Source: a virus
IMG/VR virus record: IMGVR_UViG_3300036945_000147
Coordinates: 1 to 27,371 of that record
Length of the DNA: 27,371 bases
Direction: 5' to 3' (one strand)
The notes beneath the pieces were generated by a model. It was not told the DNA's origin, ran no database searches, and saw only the letters and a program-made list of their open reading frames with translations. This document shows positions 1,479 through 26,127 of this stretch, piece after piece (the first letter of the stretch is position 1; each line of letters opens with the position of its first letter). The position numbers were made by a program, and so were the translations under genes.

Positions 1479-2666
1479 CTAGTCAGATAGATCGGCGTCT
1501 ATATCTTCCCCAGCACCGATATACGGCATGCCCTGTGTAGCGTACGCATACCCTATGGCATCTTCAAGTTGGCGAGCTTCATCTTCTAGTCGTGTGCGTT
1601 CTACGGCCGCTGGGTCGTCAATAGTCCCGCTCCACCAACCAGCATCAGGCACCGGGCCCAGATTACTCAATGCCGTATTTGTTGCGTCGAGTCGATCTAT
1701 ATATTGGCTGATGATTGTGGCGCTTACGGGTTTAACTTCTCGGGGCGCATTAGCTGCACTTGCGCCAGCGGCAGCCTTAGCCGAAGCGGCGGCACGCGCC
1801 ATGCGAGACTGTTCGAGTGCGCCCTGAAGGTCTAGCTTATCTTTGTCATACTGGTCACGCGCTGTGCGTGCAGCCTCAACTCCTTTAAGGCCGGCTTCGC
1901 CTACGGCACCGAGGAGTGTGGGCTGCGTGGAAGACATCATGTTCAAGCCGACTTGGGCCAAGGACAACCACTTGTCTTGCTTTGCGGCTTTTTCACGCGA
2001 TGCGAGGGCGTCCATGAGCTGCTGCTCATAAGGAGACATACCGCCACCGCCGCCACCGCCTTGTGGAGCAACTGGAGCCTCTGGTACAGCTGGAGTGGAA
2101 TCAGTAGCAGCTCTGACCTCAGCGGCGTTAGCGAGGGCTTCTTCCTGCGTCCTGAATGACTCAGTGATCCCTGCCTCTTCACGCAGAGCGGCGGCTTCGT
2201 TTGCGGATTCTTCGGCGGCTTGTAGCATGGGATCGGGTGGGGCCTCTGGGCGTACGCCTGAAAATCGCTGACCGGGAGTCTCGGGGAGAAGCGAGCCGTC
2301 TGCCTGCTCGATAAAAATACCGCCGCCAATTGTAACACGCTCACCGGCAGCCATCTTCTTCACGGGGCCGCCGCTGGCCATAGCCTGAATACCCGTGTTC
2401 TGAGCCATGTCAGTCTTCGGTGCTAGTGCGCGGGCCATATCGGCGATGCCGCCTTGGGGAACTCCGGCAGCTGCAACGGCATCCTCTGCAACAGTGCTCT
2501 CTGGAGCGGGCTGCCCAGCGGCCGAGGACTCCATCTGTTTGCGACGCATGATTTCCCCGAGCACTAGGTACTGGGGTGTACTACCATCTGGCATCTGCAT
2601 GGCACTGATGAGCTGCTCTTGCGAGAAGTTCTTAAGCTGGTCTTGAAGCTTGACGATGTTCATCAT
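1479..2666 (-). CDS. Internal virion / structural protein, 395 aa
   Basis: The N-terminus has a conserved-looking segment (MQMPDGSTPQYLVLGEIMRR, about residues 23-42) followed by low-complexity Ala/Pro/Gly-rich sequence, a MASGGPVKKM motif near residue 96 and a helical, charged domain after residue 210. The C-terminal third is rich in Asp and Glu. The start overlaps the stop of the upstream 344-aa gene as ATGA, so the two are translationally coupled. Proteins with this opening are common beside ejection proteins in environmental podovirus-like genomes (from memory). No enzymatic motif is visible. The GGPVKK motif is shared in style with the small basic proteins at 12.6-15.4 kb. Ejection or internal virion protein is the best guess; the exact role is unknown. 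Confidence 0.7.
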   Translation of the reverse strand: MMNIVKLQDQLKNFSQEQLISAMQMPDGSTPQYLVLGEIMRRKQMESSAAGQPAPESTVAEDAVAAAGVPQGGIADMARALAPKTDMAQNTGIQAMASGGPVKKMAAGERVTIGGGIFIEQADGSLLPETPGQRFSGVRPEAPPDPMLQAAEESANEAAALREEAGITESFRTQEEALANAAEVRAATDSTPAVPEAPVAPQGGGGGGGMSPYEQQLMDALASREKAAKQDKWLSLAQVGLNMMSSTQPTLLGAVGEAGLKGVEAARTARDQYDKDKLDLQGALEQSRMARAAASAKAAAGASAANAPREVKPVSATIISQYIDRLDATNTALSNLGPVPDAGWWSGTIDDPAAVERTRLEDEARQLEDAIGYAYATQGMPYIGAGEDIDADLSD

Positions 2667-3697
2667 GAGTATGCCTGATATAGCGATAGGCCCGTGAGCC
2701 CCGCCCCTAGAGCCTGCTGCATTGGGTTACTGTACTGATAGTCAGTACTCGTCTGCGTACTCGTAGGAGCAACGGGTAGGCCACGTAGAATGTCCGAATA
2801 GAACGCGAGCTGCTCCTGCGGATAACCCTGCTGACGTAGATAGTCTTGGTAGCCGATATCCAGCCCAGCTTGTTCTTCACGCTGCCGCCCGCGACCGAGT
2901 GCGTCTAGCATCTGCACATTCTGGATGTCTGCTGTGCGCTCACTTTGACCAAACCCAGCGAGCTGCTGCGCCGCTGCGCCTCGTGCCTGCAATGCGGCAA
3001 GTCCCTGCCCTGCGCCAAACTGACGCGAAGCCTCTATACCCGTCTGCACACGGCCACGCTCACCAGCCTGTGCCCCACCATAAGCAAGCCGTGCTGCGCG
3101 GTCGTCTCCAAACTGACGCGCTGCTTGCTCAAAAGCGGCTTGGCGCCCGGTAACGTCAATACCCTGCATCTGCTTTGCTAGGTTTTCTTCGGCCAGACCC
3201 TCTTGCACAGCCTGACGGCTGCCACCAAATGCCCCCGCCTGCGCTGCACGCGAGTTTCTATCGCCGCGCATCCGGTCAAAGTCTTCGACGGCACGGTCTT
3301 TCTGGAAGTCCAAGACACCCGTCATGTAGGGCGACATGTACTTTTCGGCTTGTGCGCCTGTGAACTCACCCGCCTTGCCAAAATCAAATTCGCTAAACTT
3401 GCCGGTATCGTAGTCGCCAAGCCGGCCGGCTTCTTGGATGTTAGACCGCGCAGCGTTTTGGGCTGTCCCCAAGCCCGCAATGCCCTGACCAGCGATGTTG
3501 CGCGTCATGTTTTCAGCTCTGCGGATGTCGGCAAAGTCACCTGATTGTGCGATTCGCTGACCACCGTAAGCCTGATATGGCTCTAGAGATTGCCCCTCGA
3601 CACGACCCATCAGCCGCTTAAAGTACGGCATGAACTCCTTGGGGATGTTCGACTGCGTGATATTTTGGTTAACCGGTTTACTGCTACTCGACCCCAT
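2663..3697 (-). CDS. Internal virion protein, Ala/Gln-rich helical, 344 aa
   Basis: Begins MGSSSSKPVNQNITQSNIPK and continues into a long Ala/Gln/Gly/Arg-rich helical protein. The segment around residues 120-165 (EKYMSPYMTGVLDFQKDRAV, then AGAFGGSRQAVQEGLAEENL) is the recognisable core: phage proteins with 'MSPY...V...Q' followed by 'GAFGGSRQ' recur as internal or ejection-type structural proteins. Residues 175-290 look coiled-coil-like with repeated AxxxARQFG-type units. There is no signal peptide or clear membrane span apart from a Gly/Leu-rich end. It overlaps the 150-aa gene upstream (start 3697, that stop at 3684) and couples by ATGA to the 395-aa gene. Role inferred from family resemblance and position. 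Confidence 0.72.
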   Translation of the reverse strand: MGSSSSKPVNQNITQSNIPKEFMPYFKRLMGRVEGQSLEPYQAYGGQRIAQSGDFADIRRAENMTRNIAGQGIAGLGTAQNAARSNIQEAGRLGDYDTGKFSEFDFGKAGEFTGAQAEKYMSPYMTGVLDFQKDRAVEDFDRMRGDRNSRAAQAGAFGGSRQAVQEGLAEENLAKQMQGIDVTGRQAAFEQAARQFGDDRAARLAYGGAQAGERGRVQTGIEASRQFGAGQGLAALQARGAAAQQLAGFGQSERTADIQNVQMLDALGRGRQREEQAGLDIGYQDYLRQQGYPQEQLAFYSDILRGLPVAPTSTQTSTDYQYSNPMQQALGAGLTGLSLYQAYS

Positions 3698-4136
3698 CGT
3701 TCAGCTCCATTTTGTAGGCAATATGATCGGGTTCCCAACCATACTTAGCCATATACTTTCCCCAAGCCTTGCGACCATAGCCCTCTAGGGAGGCGCATCC
3801 ACTAGCACGGGCGTAGTCTGCCATAACACTGTGCACCATAGGCATCCACTCTGACATACGAGAGCCGCCAATCCAGTCAAGTGACATGGCCTTACGCCCA
3901 GCTGGATATTGAACCAACCTACTAGTTCCAGCAGCTACAATACTATCATCTTGGTCTACAACAATCCACAGCACGTATGTGCCATCTAGTATACCGGTGT
4001 AGATATCGGATACAGAGTATTTCCCATTCGACGCATCAGTGACGGGCTTGAACATAGGCTCCACACTAGCCCACACGTGCCCCACAAAATCTAGCGGGAC
4101 ATGGGTAAAAACTAGGCCAGAACCAACGTCCTTCAT
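3684..4136 (-). CDS. GNAT-fold-like small virion-block protein, 150 aa
   Basis: The size and pattern resemble a GNAT fold: an N-terminal helix (PLDFVGHVWASVEPM), a strand pair WIVVDQDDSIVAAGTSRLVQ (about residues 57-76), a central strand SLDWIGGS, a helix MVHSVMADYARASGC, and an end SLEGYGRKAWGKYMAKYGWE followed by a strand (AYKMEL). The final 'xGR.aW.k.l.k.GWe' is typical of the acceptor side of GNAT proteins. A clean acetyl-CoA-binding Q/RxxGxG/A loop is not seen, so catalysis is doubtful. The T7 internal protein gp13 is, to my knowledge, also GNAT-like, which fits its place beside ejection proteins. It starts exactly where the 368-aa gene ends (one-base overlap). Confidence 0.6.
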   Translation of the reverse strand: MKDVGSGLVFTHVPLDFVGHVWASVEPMFKPVTDASNGKYSVSDIYTGILDGTYVLWIVVDQDDSIVAAGTSRLVQYPAGRKAMSLDWIGGSRMSEWMPMVHSVMADYARASGCASLEGYGRKAWGKYMAKYGWEPDHIAYKMELNDGVE

Positions 4137-5242
4137 TACATGGCCCTCCGCTGCAGCACCTCTGGAGCCTTCTTACCGGCAGAGTTTACGGCCGACAGGA
4201 ATCCACCACCAAACTTCTTCTCGAGCGCGTCGGTAGCATCCTTACGGAGCACGAACTCGCCATCGCTCAGCAGTACATCTTGCTCGCCGTCGATTGTAGC
4301 TGGAACCTTGTCGTCTACGCCAGAACCGTCACCGGGCCCGCGAACAACACCGTTCTCACCATTTGCAAACCGCTCACGTGTATCGTCTAGCTCACCGGAC
4401 TCTACGGACTCTACCAGATCGCGCAGAGCCTCTTCACCGTACTTGGCCAAGAACTTACCAAGCGCTACTTCGGGCTGCGGATGCTGACCCTTGATAGCTG
4501 CAACGGCTTCAACGATTTCGGTCTTCTCGTTGGGTTTCTCTACCTCGCCGCCCTCGGCGTATGCCATAGTGCCGCGATTGTTGTACGCATTTAGCTGACC
4601 ATAGGAGTACGGTGTAGAAATGCCATAATCAAACTCAGGGTCAACCCCCGGCCTATATGTCCCATCCGGCATACGCATCATGCGTGGGATAGGCCGCATC
4701 TCCTTGGCCCCTTTGTTTTTGTTCTTATCCTCATCGTCTTCCTTATTGGATGTAAGGGCCGGCGCAATGTATGCGCCCAACGCGCCACCCGCCATAGAGC
4801 CAATACCTTGGCCGGACTTTGCGAAGTCCATGCCGCTACGCATGGCGGTACCGAACTTACCAGAACCGAACAGACCCGCTAGACCCGTAGGAGGCGTAGC
4901 CGGTGGCACAGCTGGTGGCACAGCTGGGGGTATAACAGGGCTAATCGGTGGGGCTGTTGCAGCAAGGGGGCCCATACCAGCTGCCTGCGCCTGCGCTAGA
5001 TTCGCAGCGGTAGGTGCACCAGCCGTAGTACCGCCCATAAGACCACCGACAAGCTTTCCACCCGCGAATGAACCTAACCCCGCCAAAAGCCCTGCCTTGA
5101 GGTCTTTTTCCTGAATGGCGGTGCCAACACCTTGGCCAAGAGCGCTCATGATAAGTGGGCTGGAAAGCGCGCCGATGCCCGTAGCGGCACCAATTGCCGG
5201 GGCAAACGCCGATCCCAGAAAACTCAAAATCATTGGTAGCAT
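4136..5242 (-). CDS. Virion structural protein with GDGSGVDDKVPA / LSDGEFV motif, 368 aa
   Basis: Start chosen at 5242 with an AGGAG six bases upstream. The N-terminal 100 residues are hydrophobic and Gly/Ala-rich (SFLGSAFAPAIGAATGIG), suggesting membrane-interacting or amphipathic helices. A proline-rich linker of repeated PPAVPPA units follows (about 100-118). A KEDDEDKNKNKGAK stretch separates it from a C-terminal domain. That domain carries VRGPGDGSGVDDKVPATIDG and DVLLSDGEFVLRKDATDALE (about 300-340), a signature often seen in structural proteins of marine and freshwater podovirus-like phages. A MAYAEGGEVEKPNE segment lies in the middle. Likely an internal virion or head-vertex protein; function unproven. 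Confidence 0.7.
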   Translation of the reverse strand: MLPMILSFLGSAFAPAIGAATGIGALSSPLIMSALGQGVGTAIQEKDLKAGLLAGLGSFAGGKLVGGLMGGTTAGAPTAANLAQAQAAGMGPLAATAPPISPVIPPAVPPAVPPATPPTGLAGLFGSGKFGTAMRSGMDFAKSGQGIGSMAGGALGAYIAPALTSNKEDDEDKNKNKGAKEMRPIPRMMRMPDGTYRPGVDPEFDYGISTPYSYGQLNAYNNRGTMAYAEGGEVEKPNEKTEIVEAVAAIKGQHPQPEVALGKFLAKYGEEALRDLVESVESGELDDTRERFANGENGVVRGPGDGSGVDDKVPATIDGEQDVLLSDGEFVLRKDATDALEKKFGGGFLSAVNSAGKKAPEVLQRRAM

Positions 5243-7429: not shown

Positions 7430-7633
7430 CTATTTACCCAGCTGTTCCACCTTCTCATTGTGGGACACAATCTGGCGAAGAAGGGACTCGTCGTTGTCGG
7501 CAAGCCAGTCAACAGTGTTCATGCTACCCATAAGAATCGGCTTTGCAAGATCACCGTAGTTACTGACCGTTGTTACGCACCCACTTAGCAGAACGACGCT
7601 TGAGATCATCAACACTAAGAGCTTCGACTTCAT
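7430..7633 (-). CDS. Outer-membrane spanin subunit (Rz1-like lipoprotein)
   Basis: A 67-residue lipoprotein. From the ATG at 7633 the signal peptide reads MKSKLLVLMISSVVLLSGC, with a lipobox LSGC and Cys19 as the predicted lipidated residue. I prefer this start to the upstream TTG at 7639 because GAGGAG lies seven bases ahead of it. The mature part is short and helical (SHNEKVEQLGK at the end). Its 5' end overlaps the end of the Rz gene by 74 bases in another frame, the classic overlapped Rz/Rz1 layout. In the family the lipoprotein sits in the outer membrane, binds the Rz ectodomain across the periplasm and fuses inner and outer membranes at the last step of Gram-negative lysis. Confidence 0.82.
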   Translation of the reverse strand: MKSKLLVLMISSVVLLSGCVTTVSNYGDLAKPILMGSMNTVDWLADNDESLLRQIVSHNEKVEQLGK

Positions 7634-7793
7634 TCTCAATCTCCTCGGCTTGTTTCATGGCCTCGATACGACCCGTGGCCACTTTGGCTTTCTCGTTTGC
7701 ATCAGATGCGCGCTTCAAGCTGAGCCAAGTCGTCAGCGCCATCAAAAGAAAGGCGCCCGCTGCAGCAAGGAATAGTTTGATGCGCATAAACAT
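7560..7793 (-). CDS. Inner-membrane spanin subunit (Rz-like)
   Basis: A 77-residue protein with one N-terminal membrane segment (about residues 5-25, LFLAAAGAFLLMALTTWLSL after a basic start). A charged periplasmic coiled coil follows (RASDANEKAKVATGRIEAMK, EEIENEVEAL), with a short basic end. This is the topology of i-spanins. Its start overlaps the endolysin stop as TGATG, and its 3' end overlaps the Rz1-like lipoprotein gene. It is slightly short for an Rz but within the range of environmental phages. It should anchor in the inner membrane and pair with the lipoprotein encoded next. Confidence 0.8.
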   Translation of the reverse strand: MFMRIKLFLAAAGAFLLMALTTWLSLKRASDANEKAKVATGRIEAMKQAEEIENEVEALSVDDLKRRSAKWVRNNGQ

Positions 7794-11943: not shown

Positions 11944-12603
11944 TTAGCCTGCCCCTCCGGTTCTAGACATCGTTCCGTCACGGTAATCATCCCGCTTTGA
12001 CCGTAGGTCAATACCGAACAGCTGCATCATAGCTTCATTATACCTGCCGGTATATAGCTGCAACATATCCCCGTCACCCTTCAGGTAGCTGTACGCCTCA
12101 ACCAGCGAGCCATACAACAGCGCAGATTCGGCATTCTCGCCAAGCCACGAGGTCGATGTGGTGCTGATAGATGGGGGGTCGTAATAGTAATGCAGCTCCA
12201 CACTGTAATTCGCGTTCGGGGTTGGCCCCAGAATGAAGTTGCCCTCGCTTACCCCTGTCTGGTCGCCGTCGAACTGGGCGTAGTACTTGGGCACACCCGT
12301 CGTGGAAGCGCGCGGATAAGCCTCACGGATGAAGTTAACGTCCTTGTCGTAGAGATAGACGTAGTCCCCATCAGCCTCGATCACAGCAAGAGAGAACACA
12401 GAAAGGAAGTCCGACGGACGCGCCAAATACGGAACGCCCGAAGTCAGCGTGCCCGTCGCATTCTTTCTGAGTTCGGGGATTTGCACCGAGCGATAGATGC
12501 GCTCCTCGGCCTGCTTAACGAACATAGGGATATTAGCGACGAACGATGTCTCGGTCGTCTCTAGGTAATCCTGCAGTGCCTGAGTGAGTTCCGCGTAGTT
12601 CAT
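11944..12603 (-). CDS. Head-tail adaptor protein (SU10-like / gp11-type), 219 aa
   Basis: The first 60 residues read MNYAELTQALQDYLETTETS then FVKQAEERIYRSVQIPELRK. This alpha-helical opening is typical of podovirus adaptor proteins that bind below the portal (SU10 adaptor and T7 gp11-like families, from memory). The centre is beta (YLARPSDFLSVFSLAVIEAD, YYAQFDGDQTGVSEGNFILG), followed by VELHYYYDPPSI and helices AESALLYGSLVEAYSYLKGD. It starts three bases after the stop of the 58-aa gene (TAATAGATG). It would form a dodecameric ring joining portal and nozzle. The 226-aa protein upstream looks like a second connector of similar architecture. Confidence 0.75.
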   Translation of the reverse strand: MNYAELTQALQDYLETTETSFVANIPMFVKQAEERIYRSVQIPELRKNATGTLTSGVPYLARPSDFLSVFSLAVIEADGDYVYLYDKDVNFIREAYPRASTTGVPKYYAQFDGDQTGVSEGNFILGPTPNANYSVELHYYYDPPSISTTSTSWLGENAESALLYGSLVEAYSYLKGDGDMLQLYTGRYNEAMMQLFGIDLRSKRDDYRDGTMSRTGGAG

Positions 12604-12606
12604 CTA

Positions 12607-12783
12607 TTAGCCGTTCTTGCTAAAGTTACCGCCCTTGGTAGCTGCGCCCATACCGCGAACCTTACCACCCGAGGCCATCTTGCATGCTTTACCACCCATG
12701 GCCATCTTACCGACGCCGTCAGCGGCGAAAGCGGGAACTTTCTTGCCCCCCTTTTCGACCATCTTCAGCTTTGGGGTTTTCAT
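12607..12783 (-). CDS. Tiny basic GGKV protein, 58 aa
   Basis: A short open frame from ATG at 12783, coupled as ATGA to the stop of the gene before it, ending three bases before the adaptor gene. It reads MKTPKLKMVEKGGKKVPAFA, then KMAMGGKACKMASGGKVRGM and a Gly/Lys end. It is rich in Lys, Gly and Met and has no predicted fold. The GGK(V/A) motif recurs in neighbouring small proteins. Tight spacing on both sides and the shared motif support a real gene. Function unknown; DNA- or capsid-binding peptide is a guess. Confidence 0.72.
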   Translation of the reverse strand: MKTPKLKMVEKGGKKVPAFAADGVGKMAMGGKACKMASGGKVRGMGAATKGGNFSKNG

Positions 12784-13085
12784 TTCTTACCCACCTTACC
12801 GCCGGACTTGTATGCACGTGCACTTCCACGTGCGCCACCGCCGCCCGGAGCCCGAGCCGCAGGGGTTTTACCGCCGACGTTGCTAACACCAGCCTGCTTC
12901 ATCGTGCTTGCCATCTGGCCATACGCTGCCTTTTGGGCGGCTGGGGTAACGGGCTTTTTCTTTGGGCCCTTTTCGCCGGCATAATCGGTAGTGTACGATT
13001 TGCCATTGAACGTAAACTTGCCCCCAGCGCCCTGTGCTTTGCGCGCTGCTGCAAATGCTGACTCAAAATCACTCATCTTCGCCAT
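12780..13085 (-). CDS. Small basic protein with FTFNGKSYTTD motif, about 101 aa
   Basis: I start it at 13085 (MAKMSDFESAFAAARKAQGA) because GGAG sits seven bases upstream. The alternative ATG at 13091 overlaps the previous stop as ATGA and would add two residues. After a helix comes GGKFTFNGKSYTTDYAGEKG (about residues 22-41), a small beta motif found in many tiny phage proteins, then a Pro/Lys-rich segment. A glycine-rich tail ends in SGGKVGKK. It is strongly basic. The longer upstream frame to 13169 overlaps a better-supported gene and is rejected. Function unknown. Confidence 0.7.
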   Translation of the reverse strand: MAKMSDFESAFAAARKAQGAGGKFTFNGKSYTTDYAGEKGPKKKPVTPAAQKAAYGQMASTMKQAGVSNVGGKTPAARAPGGGGARGSARAYKSGGKVGKK

Positions 13086-13087
13086 TT

Positions 13088-13408
13088 TCATGCTCCATCT
13101 GTTGTGACAACTGTCACGGTTCCAACTGATCCTACCATATCCTGTATGGGGTTCCAAACAGGATTCCATCCAAACAACCCGTTGCCCGGCGCGTAGTCTG
13201 GACGCGGGTCTCGTAGCGACTGCGGGTCGTTAATTTTTACACGGCCAAGGAAGTTCTGTGGCTGATCCGGATCGACAATATCTTTACCGATACGAAACCC
13301 AGTCTTCTTACCGTTTTGGATTTCCCATACGAGATCGCCCAGCTTGTAGCGGAAACCGCTCCTGTCGCAGATACCAAAGGCGTGTTTACCGCGTGCATAT
13401 GCCGGCAT
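13088..13408 (-). CDS. Conserved small phage protein with CDRSGFRY motif, 106 aa
   Basis: Opens MPAYARGKHAFGICDRSGFR with a Cys-Asp-Arg-Ser-Gly motif, followed by KLGDLVWEIQNGKKTGFRIG and DPDQPQNFLGRVKINDPQSL, then RDPRPD. Small proteins with 'CDRSGxxY...L....G..V......D...PQ' are common among connector genes of T7-like and environmental podoviruses (from memory). It lies three bases after the 226-aa connector gene and before the small basic proteins. A structural or tail-completion role is likely. It has one Cys, so no zinc site of its own. Confidence 0.68.
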   Translation of the reverse strand: MPAYARGKHAFGICDRSGFRYKLGDLVWEIQNGKKTGFRIGKDIVDPDQPQNFLGRVKINDPQSLRDPRPDYAPGNGLFGWNPVWNPIQDMVGSVGTVTVVTTDGA

Positions 13409-13411
13409 GAT

Positions 13412-14092
13412 TCACCCAAACATCATAGTGTCAAAGGGTACGAAATTCACAGAAGAGCGGTCGCGGTCTTCGCCCGCAGCCAGCTCAAACTGCTCATCGT
13501 ATATCTGTTTTAGCGGGAGGACACGCGGTAGCGCTTCGGGCTTCTTCATGGCGATGTAGTAGGCCAGACCTGAAACGAGTGCGGGTACAAAGCGCGGTGG
13601 GACAGAGACTGTTTCCCCACCAATACCAGACGCCAGACCATCAATGCCCTTCAGCCGATAGTAAAACAGCGTGTAGCTCTGTGAGTTGTCCGGTGTGGGC
13701 CACAATGTGACCGTCGTGCTAGTCGGGAGCCGCTGCACGAATATCTGCGTAGGTCGGCCAGTGATCTGCTTGTTCGTCTGCTGCGCATAAGTTGATACAG
13801 ATATGCGCTCTAGCTTGGTATCTACCTGTGATGTACCTGTTCCGGTACGCAGCTGGTGTTCGATGATGTCAATCGTATCGGCCGGAAGCGTATACACCGT
13901 GGTTCCCGCAGTCAGTGCAAGCGTACCAGCTTCGATAGTGAACAAGTTCAAACCTTTGTTGGCCCACTCCAGCGTGAGCAGGTTCAAACTGCGGCGTGCA
14001 GTCTTTAGGTCGTACCCAGAGCGCATTTCCAAACCAGCCCGCTCGAAGGCTTCCTCGAAGAGTTCCGGTAGGTCTGGCACAACGACGGACAT
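13412..14092 (-). CDS. Head-tail connector / tail accessory protein, 226 aa
   Basis: Starts MSVVVPDLPELFEEAFERAG, then DLKTARRSLNLLTLEWANKG and LNLFTIEAGTLALTAGTTVY, TLPADTIDII. This helix-then-beta opening ('R.sLN.L...W...G.nL...') is typical of phage adaptor or tail accessory proteins such as the P22 gp4 group. The second half is beta (TVTLWPTPDNSQSYTLFYYR) with a helical end (FVPALVSGLAYYIAMKKPEA). It was started at 14092 with AGGA eight bases upstream. With the 219-aa adaptor 0.8 kb downstream, the phage seems to encode two stacked connector rings. Family assignment is by pattern only. Confidence 0.72.
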   Translation of the reverse strand: MSVVVPDLPELFEEAFERAGLEMRSGYDLKTARRSLNLLTLEWANKGLNLFTIEAGTLALTAGTTVYTLPADTIDIIEHQLRTGTGTSQVDTKLERISVSTYAQQTNKQITGRPTQIFVQRLPTSTTVTLWPTPDNSQSYTLFYYRLKGIDGLASGIGGETVSVPPRFVPALVSGLAYYIAMKKPEALPRVLPLKQIYDEQFELAAGEDRDRSSVNFVPFDTMMFG

Positions 14093-14094
14093 GG

Positions 14095-14469
14095 CTATTT
14101 CCTAAATTTGGCGGTCTTAGCCGCTATCTTCTTCGGTTGTGCCACAAATTGCTTGCCTTTGCGAGTACCTTCGCGTTTGGCACGTGTGGTGGCGGCATAC
14201 TCGGCAGGGCTCAAAGATTCGCGGGCCTTCTTGGGTAGGTAGCGCTCGCCGGTCTCACCGGAAGGTTTACCGCTTTTGGTGCCCCAAGATTCCTTCGTCC
14301 ACTTTGACATGGACTTTTGCGCAGCAGTCTTTTCGCCAGAGTATCCGCCACCCTTTTCTTTGTAGATTTTACCAGCGAGCTGCATGGCACGGGCGGAATG
14401 CTTTCCGCCCATCTTAGCCTTGGCTTGCGCCTTGGACTGTTCCCATAACTTCTCGTTAGTACGTCCCAT
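14095..14469 (-). CDS. Basic conserved viral protein (DUF5872-like), 124 aa
   Basis: A lysine-rich protein: MGRTNEKLWEQSKAQAKAKM, then GGKHSARAMQLAGKIYKEKG, KSMSKWTKESWGTKSGKPSG, GERYLPKKARESLSPAEYAA and TTRAKREGTRKGKQFVAQPK. The 'SKWTKE.WgTKSGKPS...GERYLP..A...L...EYAATTRAKR' series is a conserved family known from phages and, I believe, also from large eukaryotic DNA viruses; I recall it as DUF5872 but cannot check. Highly basic, no membrane span. A nucleic-acid-binding virion protein is plausible. It sits between the small zinc-ribbon-like protein and the 226-aa connector. Confidence 0.75.
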   Translation of the reverse strand: MGRTNEKLWEQSKAQAKAKMGGKHSARAMQLAGKIYKEKGGGYSGEKTAAQKSMSKWTKESWGTKSGKPSGETGERYLPKKARESLSPAEYAATTRAKREGTRKGKQFVAQPKKIAAKTAKFRK

Positions 14470-14472
14470 GGC

Positions 14473-14634
14473 TCACTTAAACCCCTTGGAGCATTTGCCT
14501 GCGGCCGAGCAGCTGCCCGGATTCCCGCACTGACGGCACGGTACAAACTGCGTTGTCGCAACAACGCCGGTCACGTACACTTCGGTGTTCTCCACCGCTG
14601 GCGCAGGCGCCTTGGTTGTTGGTTTTCTGCTCAT
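14473..14634 (-). CDS. Tiny cysteine-motif protein, 53 aa
   Basis: A short frame from ATG at 14634 (ATGA overlap with the previous gene) to a stop at 14473, three bases before the next gene. It reads MSRKPTTKAPAPAVENTEVY, a linker, then QFVPCRQCGNPGSCSAAGKC. The four cysteines in CxxC-x5-C-x5-C look like a minimal zinc-binding knuckle, followed by a basic end SKGFK. Such 'CRQCGxPxxCxxAGxC' mini-proteins occur in other phages (from memory). Coupling on both sides supports it being real. Function unknown. Confidence 0.75.
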   Translation of the reverse strand: MSRKPTTKAPAPAVENTEVYVTGVVATTQFVPCRQCGNPGSCSAAGKCSKGFK

Positions 14635-15020
14635 TTCATCGTACCCTTGGTCTTGCCCTTCATGCAGCAGCCATCGCCGCGGCTGGCCATACCACCTTTG
14701 GCGTAACCTTTTACAGCGCCGCCCTTTTTCATGCCCGCTGCTCGGCGATTAAGCATCGCTTCCATCATACCTGCTTGGGGCGTACCGGGGGCCGCTCGCA
14801 TCATTCCACCCAGACCCATACCGGGGCCACCCGCAGGTGGACGAGGCATTCCACCCGGGCCCATGCTAGGGGGCATACCGGGGCGACCCATACCGGGGCG
14901 AGGGGGCATAACCGCCGGGCGCCGAGCGCCATCAGCCATACCGCCCATCATCATCTTTTTGACCTTCTTAGACTTCGGGGCAGTAGAAATCTCTTTGCCC
15001 ATATTTCCACGGTTCATCAT
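14631..15020 (-). CDS. Pro/Gly/Met-rich basic protein, 129 aa
   Basis: A low-complexity protein: MMNRGNMGKEISTAPKSKKV, then a central Pro-Gly-Met-Arg-rich tract (about residues 35-80, with units such as RPGMGRPGMPPSMGPGGMPR). The C-terminus carries the KKGGAVKGYAKGGMASRGDG motif ending CCMKGKTKGTMK. The 'GGxVKGYAKGGMAxRGDGC..KGxTKG' ending is a recurrent signature of small phage proteins in this gene neighbourhood. Start choice is uncertain by one codon (two consecutive Met). It overlaps the 46-aa gene upstream by four bases and the cysteine-motif gene downstream by four. No enzyme motif. The collagen-like tract may vary in length. Confidence 0.7.
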   Translation of the reverse strand: MMNRGNMGKEISTAPKSKKVKKMMMGGMADGARRPAVMPPRPGMGRPGMPPSMGPGGMPRPPAGGPGMGLGGMMRAAPGTPQAGMMEAMLNRRAAGMKKGGAVKGYAKGGMASRGDGCCMKGKTKGTMK

Positions 15021-15157
15021 TTCTTCGTACCTTTCTTGGCTACGCCCTTGATAGAGCCTTTGTTTTCTGCGGCATAGAAGACTCTATCTCCGCGATCCTT
15101 GCCATAGGTCTTTTCCATGGCTTTCTTGATCTTCTTACCCTTAGCTGTCAGTGGCAT
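15017..15157 (-). CDS. Tiny basic protein, 46 aa
   Basis: A short frame from ATG at 15157 to TGA at 15017, filling the gap between the 83-aa and 129-aa genes. It reads MPLTAKGKKIKKAMEKTYGK, then DRGDRVFYAAENKGSIKGVA and KKGTKK. The pattern 'MPLT.KGKKI...M...YG...Ge.VFYA..NkG.I.Gv' is a familiar small phage protein in my memory. It overlaps the next start as ATGATGA. Basic, helical; function unknown. Confidence 0.75.
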   Translation of the reverse strand: MPLTAKGKKIKKAMEKTYGKDRGDRVFYAAENKGSIKGVAKKGTKK

Positions 15158-15165
15158 AGTTTACC

Positions 15166-15417
15166 TCAGCAGTTCCATGCGCGCAGTGAGAGCGCCTTAC
15201 GTGTCGGTTTACCCTTTTCGTCTTTCATGGGGCCGGGCATGCCACTCATGCGGGCGCAGAACGACTTGCGCCGTGCTGCGTCTTTCTTGTTCTTCGGGTT
15301 GGGGGCTGGCGGCTTAAGGTTCATACCCTGAGCCTTGGCGGACGCCCGCCCTTTTGCATTTAGGCCCCCTTTCGGGTCTTTGCCGGCCTTGCGAGTCCAC
15401 GCGGGCGTCTTTGCCAT
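15166..15417 (-). CDS. Small basic phage protein (DUF6321-like), 83 aa
   Basis: Reads MAKTPAWTRKAGKDPKGGLN, then AKGRASAKAQGMNLKPPAPN, KKDAARRKSFCARMSGMPGP and KPTRKALSLRAWNC. The 'aWtRkeGKnPkGGLNakGraSa...G.nLKpP...p......RrkSFCARM.Gm.G' series is a conserved small family of phages and related mobile elements; I recall it as DUF6321, unchecked. Two cysteines lie in SFCARM and at the C-terminus. It is very basic and probably binds nucleic acid or the capsid interior. It ends eight bases before the 46-aa gene starts. Confidence 0.75.
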   Translation of the reverse strand: MAKTPAWTRKAGKDPKGGLNAKGRASAKAQGMNLKPPAPNPKNKKDAARRKSFCARMSGMPGPMKDEKGKPTRKALSLRAWNC

Positions 15418-16672: not shown

Positions 16673-17236
16673 CTAGTCGAGCCTGTTACTTTTGGAGCTG
16701 TTTTCTATGTGCGTAAGAATCTGCAGGTTCCACGGAACGTGGAGACCACACACGACTTCGGAGCGGAGTGGTATAATGTGGTCGACGACGTGTTTAACGC
16801 CGGTGCGCTTCGTAAGCGCGCGTGCCTGCAGGTAGATCGCGGCTATGTGTTTTTTCTGCTCGGGGCTCAGCCACTTAGGTGCCGCTTCTCTAGCCCTACG
16901 CTTCCATGCGTTTGCGGATGCCTGCACAAGTTCTGGATTTTTAGTTTTCCACGCATCTCTGTGCTTTTGTATGTGTTCTCTCGGACGAGAAACTGAGCGG
17001 GCTTTTACCAGCTCACGGTTCTGCTCATAGTACTTACGCCCTGCGGCCTTGGCAGCGTCGGATTTAGGCTTCGATTTCCGACGCTCATTATCTGCGGCCC
17101 AGTCCTCTTTCATGCACTCTACACAAACGCCTTTAGTTTTCCGCGGAGCCACATGTCCACGCGCGCATGGCTCTCCGGTAAAATAGTGAGTTGCGCCAAG
17201 CAGCTTAGCTTCTTTTCTGGTTTTTGGGTAGTCCAT
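16673..17236 (-). CDS. Free-standing HNH endonuclease, 187 aa
   Basis: The N-terminus has a zinc-finger-like part: HYFTGEPCARGHVAPRKTKG (Cys24, His28) then VCVECM (Cys38, Cys41). A long basic helical linker (about 45-130) follows, then the HNH motif KHVVDHIIPLRSEVVCGLHV and PWNLQILTHIENSSKSNRLD at the C-terminus. DH, the Asn in WNLQ and the later His are the expected nuclease residues. Such proteins in phages are usually homing endonucleases that nick alleles lacking them. It has its own promoter, sits just after the capsid terminator and breaks an otherwise compact capsid-to-connector operon, so it looks like an insertion. AGAGGT four bases upstream supports the start. Confidence 0.88.
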   Translation of the reverse strand: MDYPKTRKEAKLLGATHYFTGEPCARGHVAPRKTKGVCVECMKEDWAADNERRKSKPKSDAAKAAGRKYYEQNRELVKARSVSRPREHIQKHRDAWKTKNPELVQASANAWKRRAREAAPKWLSPEQKKHIAAIYLQARALTKRTGVKHVVDHIIPLRSEVVCGLHVPWNLQILTHIENSSKSNRLD

Positions 17237-17343: not shown

Positions 17344-18249
17344 TTATGCGCCCGGCGATCCATAAATAGCGAGCGGGTCTGACACGCCAAAGCTGTAACG
17401 CTCGCGGGCTTTATACCTCACGTTGCCTGTATCAAAGTCGCCATCCATTGACTGGCTCAGGGCAATACGCACAAAGTGCTTCATGCCGTTGGGCACGTCG
17501 GTGGTCAGGAACCACGCGTCGTTGTCGGTCAGGTAGTGATTGACGCCATAGCCGCCGGGGATCGAACCATTGCTATTGATAGCGTTGATATCGTTATCAG
17601 CGGTGCCGACACGCAGTTCAGTTTGCAGCAAACGAGTTGCCACGAACATCAGGCTTGGCGGGATGATCAACTTGCGAGGACGGGCTGCAATCAGCAGGCC
17701 GCGTTCGTCTTTGTAAGCTGCAATGTCGATAACAGCTTGTTCCAACGAGGTCTCGTTCAAGTCGGCAGCAGTGGTTGGGCGGTTTGCGTTCGTGCCACCA
17801 GCAACGGTCGGGTGCGATGCGTTCAGCAAGCTTACGCCGTCGCCCGACAGGAACGTGGTGAAGCCTGCGTTCAGCAGCGAAGCTGCCTTAACTTGCTTCG
17901 TATAGGCCATGGCGCGAGCCAGTGCCTTGGTGTAACGAGCCGACAGCGAGTCGTACAGGTTATCTTCCATAGCTTCTTCGGTAATCGAGAAGCCCATGGC
18001 CACTGTCTCGTGGTTATAACGAGCAGTGAACGATTCCTGTGCGTTGTCAAACGTGATGGCCGAGCCTTCAGGTTTAACTGGAGCTGCGCCGAAGCCGCTC
18101 AACTTGACTTCTTCTTCGAACGAACGTTCGGAGGTTTCGGTCTCGTAGATGTCGACGTGCTCGTTTTCGTATTTGGCGTACTCAAGACCAAACAGGGCGT
18201 TCAAGCCCGGCAGAAGTTCTTTGAGTGCCTGTGCGCGTGAAATAGCCAT
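17344..18249 (-). CDS. Major capsid protein, Mu gpT-like, 301 aa
   Basis: Starts MAISRAQALKELLPGLNALF with a strong AGGAGGG seven bases upstream, as expected for the most abundant virion protein. The segments FEEEVKLSGFGAAPVKPEGS, TARYNHETVAMGFSITEEAM and EDNLYDSLSARYTKALARAM match the Mu-like head protein (gpT) family with the HK97 fold. KASRKLI-like strands follow (ARPRKLIIPPSLMFVATRLL), then SIPGGYGVNHYLTDNDAWFL and a C-terminal YKARERYSFGVSDPLAIYGS. It is preceded by scaffold and head proteins and closed by an intrinsic terminator, which isolates the head operon. Length is normal for the family. Confidence 0.88.
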   Translation of the reverse strand: MAISRAQALKELLPGLNALFGLEYAKYENEHVDIYETETSERSFEEEVKLSGFGAAPVKPEGSAITFDNAQESFTARYNHETVAMGFSITEEAMEDNLYDSLSARYTKALARAMAYTKQVKAASLLNAGFTTFLSGDGVSLLNASHPTVAGGTNANRPTTAADLNETSLEQAVIDIAAYKDERGLLIAARPRKLIIPPSLMFVATRLLQTELRVGTADNDINAINSNGSIPGGYGVNHYLTDNDAWFLTTDVPNGMKHFVRIALSQSMDGDFDTGNVRYKARERYSFGVSDPLAIYGSPGA

Positions 18250-23664: not shown

Positions 23665-26127
23665 TCAATAATAGTCAACCTTCCGTCTGTAAGGTATCTC
23701 TTCGTCGCGCTCATCCGTCGGCAGCCGTATGAATCCCCCTTGGCGGAACCGCATCAGTGCCATGATTGTGGTATCGACTTGGTCGTCGTTTGATGCAAAC
23801 GGGAATCCCGCGACTTCCTCGACCAGCTCCTCGGCCCAGCGCTTTGCCGGAATCCACACGAGCCCTGACGAAATTATGTCTGACACAGAGTTGAGACGCG
23901 CCATCTTACTGTTCGGGTTGTTTATCGAACCACGGACAGGCGTGTACTCTTGCACCATAACCCCAGCGCGCCGCATTTCCTGATAGAGTGCCGTACCGGA
24001 GCTTTTCTTCTCGACGATGAACGCGTCAGGCTCCCACTCCTTGTACTCTTCCATTGACATGGCCTTGAGCTCGGGGAACTCCATGCGCTGCTTGATGGCG
24101 TTGAGCAGGATGATCTGGTGCATGTCCTCCTCATTGTTGAAGAACACACCCCACGTCGTCAGCGATGTAAAGTCGGCTCGGTTGTTTGCTTCGGCTGCGG
24201 CGTCCAGCGCCATGATGATGTACTCTACGGCTGGCGGGTCGTCGTCCGGCCACAGTCTCCACCAGTCACGCTTGATTATCGCCGCCTCTTCACCTGTGGG
24301 ATTCTGCTGATACTGTGCGTTCCACTGGAACACGGGCATACTAGCCTTTGTACGCAGTAGAGCAGTTAAATCGAAGAACTCCGGCCAGAGTGCGCGCTGG
24401 ACGATCTCGCCCGTGTCCTTGTCCTCTACCTCGAGGATGGCCGGGAACTCAATCACCTCGTACTGATCAGAGTCCTCGTTGTTGGCCATGTCCTTGATGA
24501 GACGTCCTGTCAGGTCGTCAGAATGCCATCGGGTGTTAGAAACCACAGTGAAGTTAGCAATAAAGTTCTCAGTGTCTTCGACTTGGATGTCGAAGACATC
24601 CTCCACTCCGTCAGGGGTTATGCTTATGATTTCTGAGGTACTGAATGGCCCGGAGTAGTATTCGTTCGTCAACTCCATCTCTGAGTACGAGATTGCAGCT
24701 GTTACATAGGAGGGCTCTGACCTTACCGCTAGTGTGGCAATGATCGACCGCAAGGGGGTTCTCATCCCCCCAAGAACTCGGTTTATCAACTTCTCCGGCG
24801 TGTTTCTCGCAGCATGCGCATCGCCCGCCTTGTGCTTGAAGCATCCGGTCGTAGTCGACGGCGGTGATGCCGTATTTGAGTTTGAGGTGGCTATTTCTCC
24901 TACGGCTAGGGCAATAGTGTTCGCCAACCTCCTTCCGTTGGTTATAATACGCCCGAGAGGCATGCTTAGTGCACAGCCCGTAAATTTTTGCCTCTTCGGT
25001 ACAGCCCGGCTCGCCGCACTGAACACCCCTCCACCTTCCCTTGTGCCCAAGCGGGCGTCGGTCTGCGCCGGGATGTTTTTTATGGTAGTGCTCCCGGCTA
25101 CGGCAGGCTTGGCACATTGAGGGTACGGTTTTTGCCCTACCGTAACCTGAGCATCCCTCAGTGACACAACTAAATCGCCCGTCCTCAAGTCTCTCACCTT
25201 TACCCATGTCTCCACCCCATCACGTACAACTAGAAACGGATGCCTAGCGTTTGCTCGGAGTAGATTACCATTAGACAATACGGTTGTATACACCTTATCT
25301 GCCCCTTGGTTCGCCCAATTTAACACTTTTCGGCTTACCAGCTCTCCGTCCTTATAAGACCCAATCATGTCTCCCGGGCGTACGTCTCGGAGAGGCTTTT
25401 CAGTGTTATCCGCCATTAAAACTGGAGTTTCCCCCGTCATACAGTGTACAATAGCTACTCTACCGCCGGGCATCAGGCGTGTCCGGGCGCCGTACGCGAA
25501 CCACTGGTAAGCTTTCTCGAATGCCGTGAAGTTACCGTTCAGGATGTCCTGTTCGGAGTGTGGGTCGTCGACGAGGAGCAAGTCAGCACCACGGCCCGCG
25601 AGTGCCGAACCCACGCCAGCTGCATAGAACTCGCACCCCGTTGTGGTGTTCCACCGACCCGCGGATTTAGAATCAGCGGCGAGCGCCGTACCCGGAAATA
25701 CGTCCCCATATGCCGCAGAATCTATCGAATTTCGTACTTTTCGGCCAAAATCCACAGCCAAATCGGTGGTGTGGGACACCAACATGACCTTCTTTCCGGG
25801 GTTCCGGCCAATAAACCAAGCCGGAAAATAGGTCGAAACAAGCTGAGATTTGCCGTGTCTAGGCGGAATATTGACTGCAATACGGTCTTTGTCGCCCGCT
25901 TCAATGGCCATAAGCTGGTCTGCGAGGATGCGGTGGTGCTTACCAACCTTGTAGTTGGAGTCCATATACTGACAGAAGGCAATCAGGTCGTCCCGTGCCG
26001 CTTGGAGAGTCGCGCGCCTATCCAACTCCTCGAGCATCTTCTCAACTTCAAGCAGCTCTATCTCGCTGAGAGTATCCACGCTCTGCAGCAGAAGCTCCAG
26101 CTCTTCGCGCGTGAAGTCTTCACTCAT
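23665..26127 (-). CDS. terL: Terminase large subunit with intein, 820-aa precursor (517 aa spliced)
   Basis: ATPase and RNase H-like nuclease that pumps and cuts DNA at the portal. N-extein (1-228): IAVNIPPRHGKSQLVSTYFP is the Walker A region (G92-K93-S94), LLLVDDPHSEQ is Walker B (D187, D188), and GGRVAIVH ends the extein. C-extein (532-820): TRWHSDDLTGRL is the coupling motif, IIMALDAAAEANNRADFTSL holds nuclease acids D642 and D652, AFIVEKKSSG gives E706, and SNDDQVDTTIMAL the last Asp group. The 303-residue insert between His228 and Thr532 is an intein; removing it restores the continuous VIVHTRWH-type motif (here AIVHTRWHSDDLTGRL). The spliced length is normal. The start overlaps the 82-aa gene by eight bases. 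Splicing is required for a working motor. Confidence 0.92.
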   Translation of the reverse strand: MSEDFTREELELLLQSVDTLSEIELLEVEKMLEELDRRATLQAARDDLIAFCQYMDSNYKVGKHHRILADQLMAIEAGDKDRIAVNIPPRHGKSQLVSTYFPAWFIGRNPGKKVMLVSHTTDLAVDFGRKVRNSIDSAAYGDVFPGTALAADSKSAGRWNTTTGCEFYAAGVGSALAGRGADLLLVDDPHSEQDILNGNFTAFEKAYQWFAYGARTRLMPGGRVAIVHCMTGETPVLMADNTEKPLRDVRPGDMIGSYKDGELVSRKVLNWANQGADKVYTTVLSNGNLLRANARHPFLVVRDGVETWVKVRDLRTGDLVVSLRDAQVTVGQKPYPQCAKPAVAGSTTIKNIPAQTDARLGTREGGGVFSAASRAVPKRQKFTGCALSMPLGRIITNGRRLANTIALAVGEIATSNSNTASPPSTTTGCFKHKAGDAHAARNTPEKLINRVLGGMRTPLRSIIATLAVRSEPSYVTAAISYSEMELTNEYYSGPFSTSEIISITPDGVEDVFDIQVEDTENFIANFTVVSNTRWHSDDLTGRLIKDMANNEDSDQYEVIEFPAILEVEDKDTGEIVQRALWPEFFDLTALLRTKASMPVFQWNAQYQQNPTGEEAAIIKRDWWRLWPDDDPPAVEYIIMALDAAAEANNRADFTSLTTWGVFFNNEEDMHQIILLNAIKQRMEFPELKAMSMEEYKEWEPDAFIVEKKSSGTALYQEMRRAGVMVQEYTPVRGSINNPNSKMARLNSVSDIISSGLVWIPAKRWAEELVEEVAGFPFASNDDQVDTTIMALMRFRQGGFIRLPTDERDEEIPYRRKVDYY
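24535..25443 (-). mobile_element. Intein in TerL coupling motif, 303 codons
   Basis: Block A: CMTGETPVLMADNTEKPLRD with Cys1 as nucleophile, then VRPGDMIGSYKDGE. Block B: GNLLRANARHPFLVVRDGVE with His at RHPF; an Asn replaces the usual Thr of TxxH. DLRTGDLVVS ends the N-terminal splicing part near residue 94. The C-terminal part starts near EIISITPDGVEDVFDIQVED, with block F TENFIANFT and block G VVSN before Thr+1. The terminal residue is Asn, but the penultimate one is Ser instead of His, and block F has Glu where His is common. Between blocks B and F, about 165 codons in this frame show no similarity I recognise; the same DNA in the -1 frame encodes an Endonuclease VII-type protein. Confidence 0.9.
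24611..25207 (-). CDS. Endonuclease VII-type (HNH) homing endonuclease nested out of frame in the TerL intein, 198 aa
   Basis: Reads in the -1 frame relative to TerL, from its own ATG (25207) to its own TGA (24611). The frame is closed by TGA at 25222-25220, five codons upstream, so it is a separate reading frame; GGGGTGGAG lies just ahead of the ATG. Two N-terminal zinc-like modules appear: C14-C19-C32-C35 (CVTEGC, MCQAC) and C64-C69-C79-H82 (CGEPGC, GLCTKH). The catalytic domain is typical Endo VII: LKYGITAVDYDRMLQAQGGR, C130xxC133, LAVDHCHTSGKVRALLCNSC with D155, H156, C168, C171 and N172. It probably cuts intein-less terL alleles to drive homing. The whole gene is also translated in the TerL frame as intein middle. 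Confidence 0.88.
   Translation of the reverse strand: MGKGERLEDGRFSCVTEGCSGYGRAKTVPSMCQACRSREHYHKKHPGADRRPLGHKGRWRGVQCGEPGCTEEAKIYGLCTKHASRAYYNQRKEVGEHYCPSRRRNSHLKLKYGITAVDYDRMLQAQGGRCACCEKHAGEVDKPSSWGDENPLAVDHCHTSGKVRALLCNSCNLVLRDGVDERILLRAIQYLRNHKHNP

Follow-up and report, generated by a model that had tools for sequence, protein, structure and literature searches.

The 27,371-base window of IMG/VR virus record IMGVR_UViG_3300036945_000147 (positions 1 to 27,371) carries an island of seven tiny basic genes, encoding proteins of 46–129 residues with isoelectric points (pI) of 9.4–11.5, in the stretch running from the major capsid gene to adaptor B, the latter of two head-tail adaptor genes. 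The GG(K/A)V motif that recurs in these proteins is a fragment of a longer C-terminal tag, GGx...R.DG.A..GKTKG-xxx, which is carried by gene 14631-15020 and which ends many dissimilar small proteins in one genomic slot of related viruses. The island is interpreted here, with a probability of roughly 0.5, as a set of hypervariable head-internal proteins for which the tag would act as a loading or docking signal. A first-pass annotation of the same DNA had noticed a short motif common to unrelated proteins and proposed a common docking partner, packaged DNA or the capsid lumen as its explanation; the observation is confirmed, and in a stronger form (a C-terminal tag under protein-level constraint in one genome slot), and the interpretation is partly supported.

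The C-terminus of gene 14631-15020 reads AVKGYAKGGMASRGDGCCMKGKTKGTMK. Among 16,026 open reading frames (ORFs), taken in six frames from the first start codon and in some cases therefore started too far upstream, the pattern DG.[AC]..GKT[KR]G occurs in 40, exactly three residues from the C-terminus in 36 of these, and it is absent from 20 shuffled ORF sets. When the viral collection was scanned at the DNA level, the tag pattern turned up in at least 120 stretches. In 118 new loci all 150 pattern matches fall inside ORFs: 68 stand at precisely the three-residue distance from the end, 72 more are within 30 residues of it, nine are further away and one is in an open ORF. With 3'-open and identical sequences and those under 60 residues left out, 238 distinct tagged ORFs remained, and every one has a pI of at least 9. 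For the tag set, DG.[AC]..GKT[KR]G near the C-terminus was combined with GGx upstream; GGx stands within 25 residues upstream of the tag in 224/238 ORFs versus 219/1145 random body stretches. The bodies ahead of the tag are diverse, since the 217 of 238 that remain when bodies under 40 residues are dropped form 93 clusters with masking (the largest of 87, and 70 singletons) and 86 without it, the cluster number depending on masking. Tagged ORFs also occur in tandem, up to five in a row (locus L172). Between tag copies on the same contig, the proportion of synonymous differences (pS) is 0.62 and that of nonsynonymous differences (pN) is 0.17 (64 pairs, 59 distinct), and the 50 residues ahead of such copies are about 16% identical; because pS lies far above pN, the tag is conserved as protein. 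The tag resembles a P-loop (GxxxxGKT), its invariant residues being partly forced by the search pattern.

Outside the viral collection, the pattern gave 25 matches in 23 bacterial and archaeal stretches, of which seven are tag-like on reading (L372, three in L374, L384, L388 and L394), all in metagenome-assembled or uncultured-bin contigs, and 18 are not. The strict pattern is missing from four named phage records, MEP402 and Pag-Yong1 among them; the slot of Planktothrix phage Pag-Yong1, when read, holds a 308-residue protein with a GRT variant of the tag, so that the strict pattern undercounts tags, and this phage has DUF6321 as well. A tblastn search of the phage collection with the tag peptide, gene 12607-12783 and a 291-residue tagged protein returned nothing, perhaps owing to the low-complexity filter, and the named phages were therefore examined by reading their slots.

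The genomic position of the tag is fixed. In the 73 loci with both a capsid gene and adaptor A, 106/106 tagged ORFs lie inside the slot between the two; once the seven loci that repeat another locus are merged, 95/95 tagged ORFs in 66 slots do so, with none outside. Of the distinct slots found by the portal alone, 7/16 have a tag, and homologues of window genes besides those of DUF6321 and 14095 are present in 116/118 viral tag loci (relatives of the DUF6321, portal and 14095 genes being the best 80 each). The typical order is capsid, DUF6321 and tagged ORFs, 14095-like gene, adaptor A, 13088-like gene and adaptor B. The expectation of the first-pass annotation that few small proteins should be found among connector genes fails for this lineage, where small genes of this kind are frequent in the slot from capsid to adaptor.

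Within the window, GG[KA]V is found three times in the seven island proteins versus 0.18 in shuffles (1/500 shuffles reach three), and [FYM][AK]xGGx[VAT] has five island sites versus 0.12 expected (0/1000). The claim that the motif is commoner than composition would give holds in the island, whereas across all 39 window proteins GG[KA]V is not significant (3 versus 1.12; 45/500). The broader GG[KAPE]V reaches 6 versus 1.76 in the 39 proteins (3/500) and 3 versus 1.52 outside the island (95/500, not significant); the longer pattern occurs twice in the other 31 proteins versus 0.28 (29/1000). The GG strings previously quoted, including those in larger proteins, are present at the positions named, and the latter sites persist in relatives: the YAEGGEV site of a 368-residue protein (4136-5242, minus strand) is kept as [YF][AS][EKD]GG in 12/13 relatives, and the MASGGPV site of a 395-residue protein (1479-2666, minus strand) as MA.GG in 6/6.

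The island genes and the flanking capsid and adaptor genes are all on the minus strand. The first slot, from the capsid gene to adaptor A, begins with a stand-alone DUF6321 domain of 83 residues (15166-15417; pI 11.2), which is a clear member of the family (PF19846, E 1.8e-26; 93 bits, above the Pfam gathering cut-off of 28.5). It is followed by a 46-residue basic protein with the MPLTAKGKKIKKAMEK... module (15017-15157; pI 10.3; homologues in 19 loci), the 129-residue product of 14631-15020 (pI 11.5) with GGAV and YAKGG motifs and the tag three residues from its end, a 53-residue basic protein with four cysteines (14473-14634; pI 9.4; homologues in 14 loci), and a 124-residue basic two-module protein (14095-14469; pI 10.5), whose C-terminal half matches phrog_14910 (E 1.7e-35) and which is merely similar to DUF5872 (PF19197; 20.9 bits, under the gathering cut-off of 27.5). 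The second slot, before adaptor B, holds two genes. Gene 12780, extending to about 13085 or 13091, encodes a basic protein of about 101–103 residues that ends in KSGGKVGKK (pI 10.5, computed on 12780-13097) and bears an FxxAFxxAR...GKxYTT module that recurs elsewhere; gene 12607-12783 encodes a 58-residue basic protein (pI 10.5) with MAMGGKA and MASGGKV and a tag-B-like end, RGMGAATKGGN. A slot protein of DSL-LC04 (L397, 22697-22924) has a similar tag-B-like string, RGMGCATRGG, placed N-terminally instead of C-terminally. The first-pass annotation had listed six coupled genes of 46–129 codons: the sizes stand, the count becomes seven, and four-base overlaps join the genes at three junctions, namely 15017/14631, 14631/14473 and 12780/12607.

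Five of the seven island genes, with 12780 and 12607 outside the set, were compared with relatives, and the ratio of nonsynonymous to synonymous substitution rates (dN/dS) ranges from 0.03 to 0.23 across 11 comparisons, indicating purifying selection (15166, 0.03 and 0.07; 15017, 0.06–0.15; 14473, 0.20 and 0.22; 14095, 0.03–0.04). The most changeable first-slot gene in four relatives is 14631, at 95, 63, 48 and 32% identity. In L003 and L145 the genes between the slots are 97–100% identical to those of the window, and the two second-slot genes are replaced by a single protein of 259 or 249 residues, respectively, whose end is similar and whose N-terminus is different.

Module fusions, as judged from sequence, tie the island to DUF6321 cargo. 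DUF6321 and the tag are fused in seven ORFs, one of them cut; the N-terminal module of 14095 is joined to DUF6321 in one T4-like ORF (L294); the tag follows the 12780 module in three ORFs and an MPSTSKKQ module in 15, and two PHROG families called virion structural proteins likewise begin with the latter module. The T4-like loci examined, short stretches chosen for DUF6321, yielded no tag. In phage HMO-2011 (L162, 6258-6617), a single 119-residue protein combines the 15017 module, GGAV and a stretch like the 14095 N-terminal module, which in the window belong to separate genes. Similarly to the window, HTVC033P (Pelagibacter), MEP402 (Methylophilales) and DSL-LC04 possess tiny basic genes arranged in rows, with modules of the DUF6321 and 14095 types, all labelled 'hypothetical' in their records; HTVC033P has seven of them in a row, with pI values of 10.8–12.0.

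DUF6321 matches were obtained in 489 phage records, mostly of cyanophages, and a virion location of the domain is supported through two of these relatives. The 517-residue S-SCSM1_29 of Synechococcus phage S-SCSM1, labelled 'virion protein', has DUF6321 at its end, and 45 proteins of the S-SCSM1 virion are reported as detected by mass spectrometry (PMC9602691). In S-CREM2, gp137 ends in a divergent DUF6321 copy and gp160 has two modules that go with DUF6321 elsewhere; both are listed in the virion mass spectrometry table (Table 3), with 4 and 7 peptides, respectively (PMC10665884). Terminase, neck and sheath genes are found close to the DUF6321 genes of S-SCSM1 and S-CREM2. The domain is, in the majority of T4-like loci read, the C-terminal part of a longer, often multi-module ORF, unlike the stand-alone protein of the window, and a Glu precedes it in 63/76 of these longer forms (44/56 distinct; the 76 being the ORFs with a recognised AW start and at least 12 residues ahead of it). 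The literature searched yielded no paper naming DUF6321, only papers unrelated by title for GKTKG with phage, and nothing describing these genes by title or abstract for cyanophage internal proteins and pelagiphage proteomics. Structural searches were uninformative: the DUF6321 model had two matches among PDB structures at E 6 or worse, the 14095 model matched two unnamed entries among viral structures at E < 0.001 and, at E 0.27, a DUF5872 protein, and a PDB sequence search returned one match for 14095 (E 0.21) and none for DUF6321.

A known system with comparable features is that of the T4 internal proteins, which bear a short N-terminal capsid targeting sequence (CTS) trimmed by the head protease (PMC3012670, PMC7697877, PMC9958956) and form in T-even phages a highly diverse set with conservation confined to the CTS (reviews PMC3012670 and PMC9958956). 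Like the island proteins, those of T4 (95–193 residues, pI 8.9–9.5) are small and basic with differing bodies, and IPII and IPIII, which both start with MKTYQEFIAE, share a short end sequence across different bodies as the tagged proteins do. Unlike in T4, the shared motif of the window is C-terminal and of other sequence, and no island protein has an N-terminal CTS of the MKTYQEFIAE type; moreover, packaging, cleavage and injection have been shown for T4 and would be predictions for the window proteins. Related starts are found on DUF6321 proteins, such as MKTYNDFITE in S-CREM1, MKTFNQFIAE in L296 and MKTFKQYITE in S-SZBM1. A CTS-like start is present in 5/11 short T4-like DUF6321 ORFs, against a background of 28/637 ORFs of T4-like loci (four of those five included) and of 7/4006 and 3/2901 ORFs in two sets of the window's lineage; 5'-open ORFs were dropped from the start count and 65 kept. 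The idea of a CTS start as a general rule for T4-like DUF6321 proteins was tried and rejected (strict CTS in 1/78; CTS-like within 16 residues upstream in 7/79). In S-CREM2, gp136 (MQTFSMFFSEDA) and gp154 (MKNFSSFLTEA), both proteins of the virion table, have CTS-like starts; gp154 is a cytidylyltransferase (L290, 29609-30469), and such a start would explain its packaging.

The head-internal reading is favoured because of the basic charge and upstream GGx of the tagged ORFs, their fixed slot, the protein-level constraint on the tag, the virion data from relatives, the CTS-like starts, the Glu ahead of DUF6321 and the module fusions; that Glu is the only feature bearing on trimming by a head protease. 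According to this reading, small lysine-rich proteins encoded among capsid and connector genes would be kept with the packaged DNA in the head interior. From one relative to another the bodies vary or are exchanged, and the short end motif (GGxV, with the extended R.DG.A..GKTKG-xxx in 14631-15020 and many relatives) stays. The end motif would serve as a signal for loading or docking by which every body reaches the prohead, by analogy with the N-terminal CTS of T4 internal proteins, and some bodies may enter the host along with the DNA. A single docking partner for the motif is the simplest, putative reading, and DNA binding of the island proteins is predicted from charge only. The earlier proposal of a capsid lumen location gains from cyanophage virion proteomics and from T4-type targeting starts on DUF6321 relatives, and for this phage itself the lumen location, DNA contact and injection are presumed. 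Several points weigh against the head-internal reading. The full tag is absent from six of the seven island genes, 14631-15020 being the sole carrier, and the tag itself has no part in the virion data, which bear on DUF6321 and its modules. A CTS is missing from most of the T4-like DUF6321 copies, the strict form being present in 1/78. For gp137, the table records only 4 peptides and 4.1% coverage, and the S-CREM2 authors caution that some listed proteins may have been co-purified (PMC10665884). Furthermore, S-SZBM1_192, which combines a CTS-like start with DUF6321, is not among the 30 virion proteins detected (Table 1, PMC9146016), and 14 virion proteins are reported for S-CREM1, whose DUF6321 protein may or may not be one of them (PMC9964418).

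In a bolder and decidedly tentative form of the reading, an aquatic podovirus lineage would use the tag as its address for capsid loading and ejection, in the manner of the T4 CTS but at the C-terminus and with unrelated sequence, and would load scores of unrelated small basic proteins by it as swappable injected effectors; DUF6321 cargo would have used both addresses, the tag in this lineage and the CTS in T4-like phages. Tryptic proteomics easily misses small lysine-rich proteins, so that such a packaged or injected class is hard to see. Should the tag prove to be a loading signal, it would offer a sequence handle for predicting packaged, and perhaps injected, unnamed phage proteins; it could also work as a portable encapsidation tag, and the roles of DUF6321 and its module partners would become directly testable.

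Alternatively, the island proteins might have a structural role and stay behind at injection, as small cement, vertex or connector-associated proteins for which the GG motif and tag would provide binding to one capsid, scaffold or portal protein. This structural explanation, considered unlikely, agrees with the slot between capsid and adaptor and with the placement of the S-SCSM1 and S-CREM2 DUF6321 genes; however, around 90 different bodies behind one tag are more than a defined structural position should need, and the DUF6321 proteins with CTS-like starts suggest the lumen instead. Late intracellular proteins that bind nucleic acid or take over the host, with a tag recognising a partner, of host or phage, inside the cell, would suit the strong basic charge and the non-detection of S-SZBM1_192 in virions, but they appear improbable in view of the two virion lists with DUF6321 proteins, the T4 CTS-like starts and the position among capsid and adaptor genes. 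It is highly improbable that recombination among neighbouring genes has spread the tag as a repeat at the DNA level without a protein role: the tandem runs of up to five tagged ORFs speak for it, yet the within-contig copies have diverged synonymously and are kept as protein. Chance in Gly/Lys-rich proteins, for which the window-wide GG[KA]V count (45/500 shuffles) might be cited, is hardly credible given the island counts (reached by 1/500 and 0/1000 shuffles), the tag-free shuffled ORF sets, the conserved sites in relatives and the fixed C-terminal place of the tag.

The genes that bound the slots have recognisable relatives. The major capsid-like gene (17344-18249, minus strand; Phage_capsid_4, E 2.1e-14; Mu gpT-like) delimits the first slot together with adaptor A (13412-14092, minus strand; acidic; SU10_adaptor PF24175, E 5.8e-14), and adaptor B (11944-12603, minus strand) delimits the second (SU10_adaptor, E 5.5e-29; PDB 7z47 adaptor, E 3.9e-8). 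Both match the SU10-type head-tail adaptor family, which accounts for the bounds of the slots and not for the small basic genes themselves; in DSL-LC04, a Pam1 adaptor is annotated after the same slot. Between the two slots lies a 106-residue gene (13088-13408, minus strand; pI 8.9) that is not lysine-rich, and a DNA-ejection-like gene is found at 2663-3697. The window's portal has relatives at 29–45% identity in 18 named phage records, including HTVC023P, Pag-Yong1, DSL-LC04, CRP-901 and Caulobacter phage RW.

Several further observations concern other parts of the window. Between the capsid gene and the island, a 187-residue basic, Cys-containing protein (16673-17236, minus strand) reads as HNH homing endonuclease-like and has no Pfam match at E 0.1. 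The large terminase gene (23665-26127, minus strand) contains an in-frame intein-like insert of about 303 residues (Intein_splicing, E 2.7e-12), within which a complete 198-residue ORF (24611-25207, minus strand) matches Endonuclease_7 (E 2.8e-18) in another frame of the same strand; the insert is also present in two (L002 and L003) among 53 listed terminase-matching ORFs of relatives, some of them partial. Finally, two overlapping small ORFs in different frames (7430-7639 and 7560-7793, minus strand) resemble an Rz/Rz1 spanin pair, with a membrane-like start on one and a lipobox-like LLSGC on the other.

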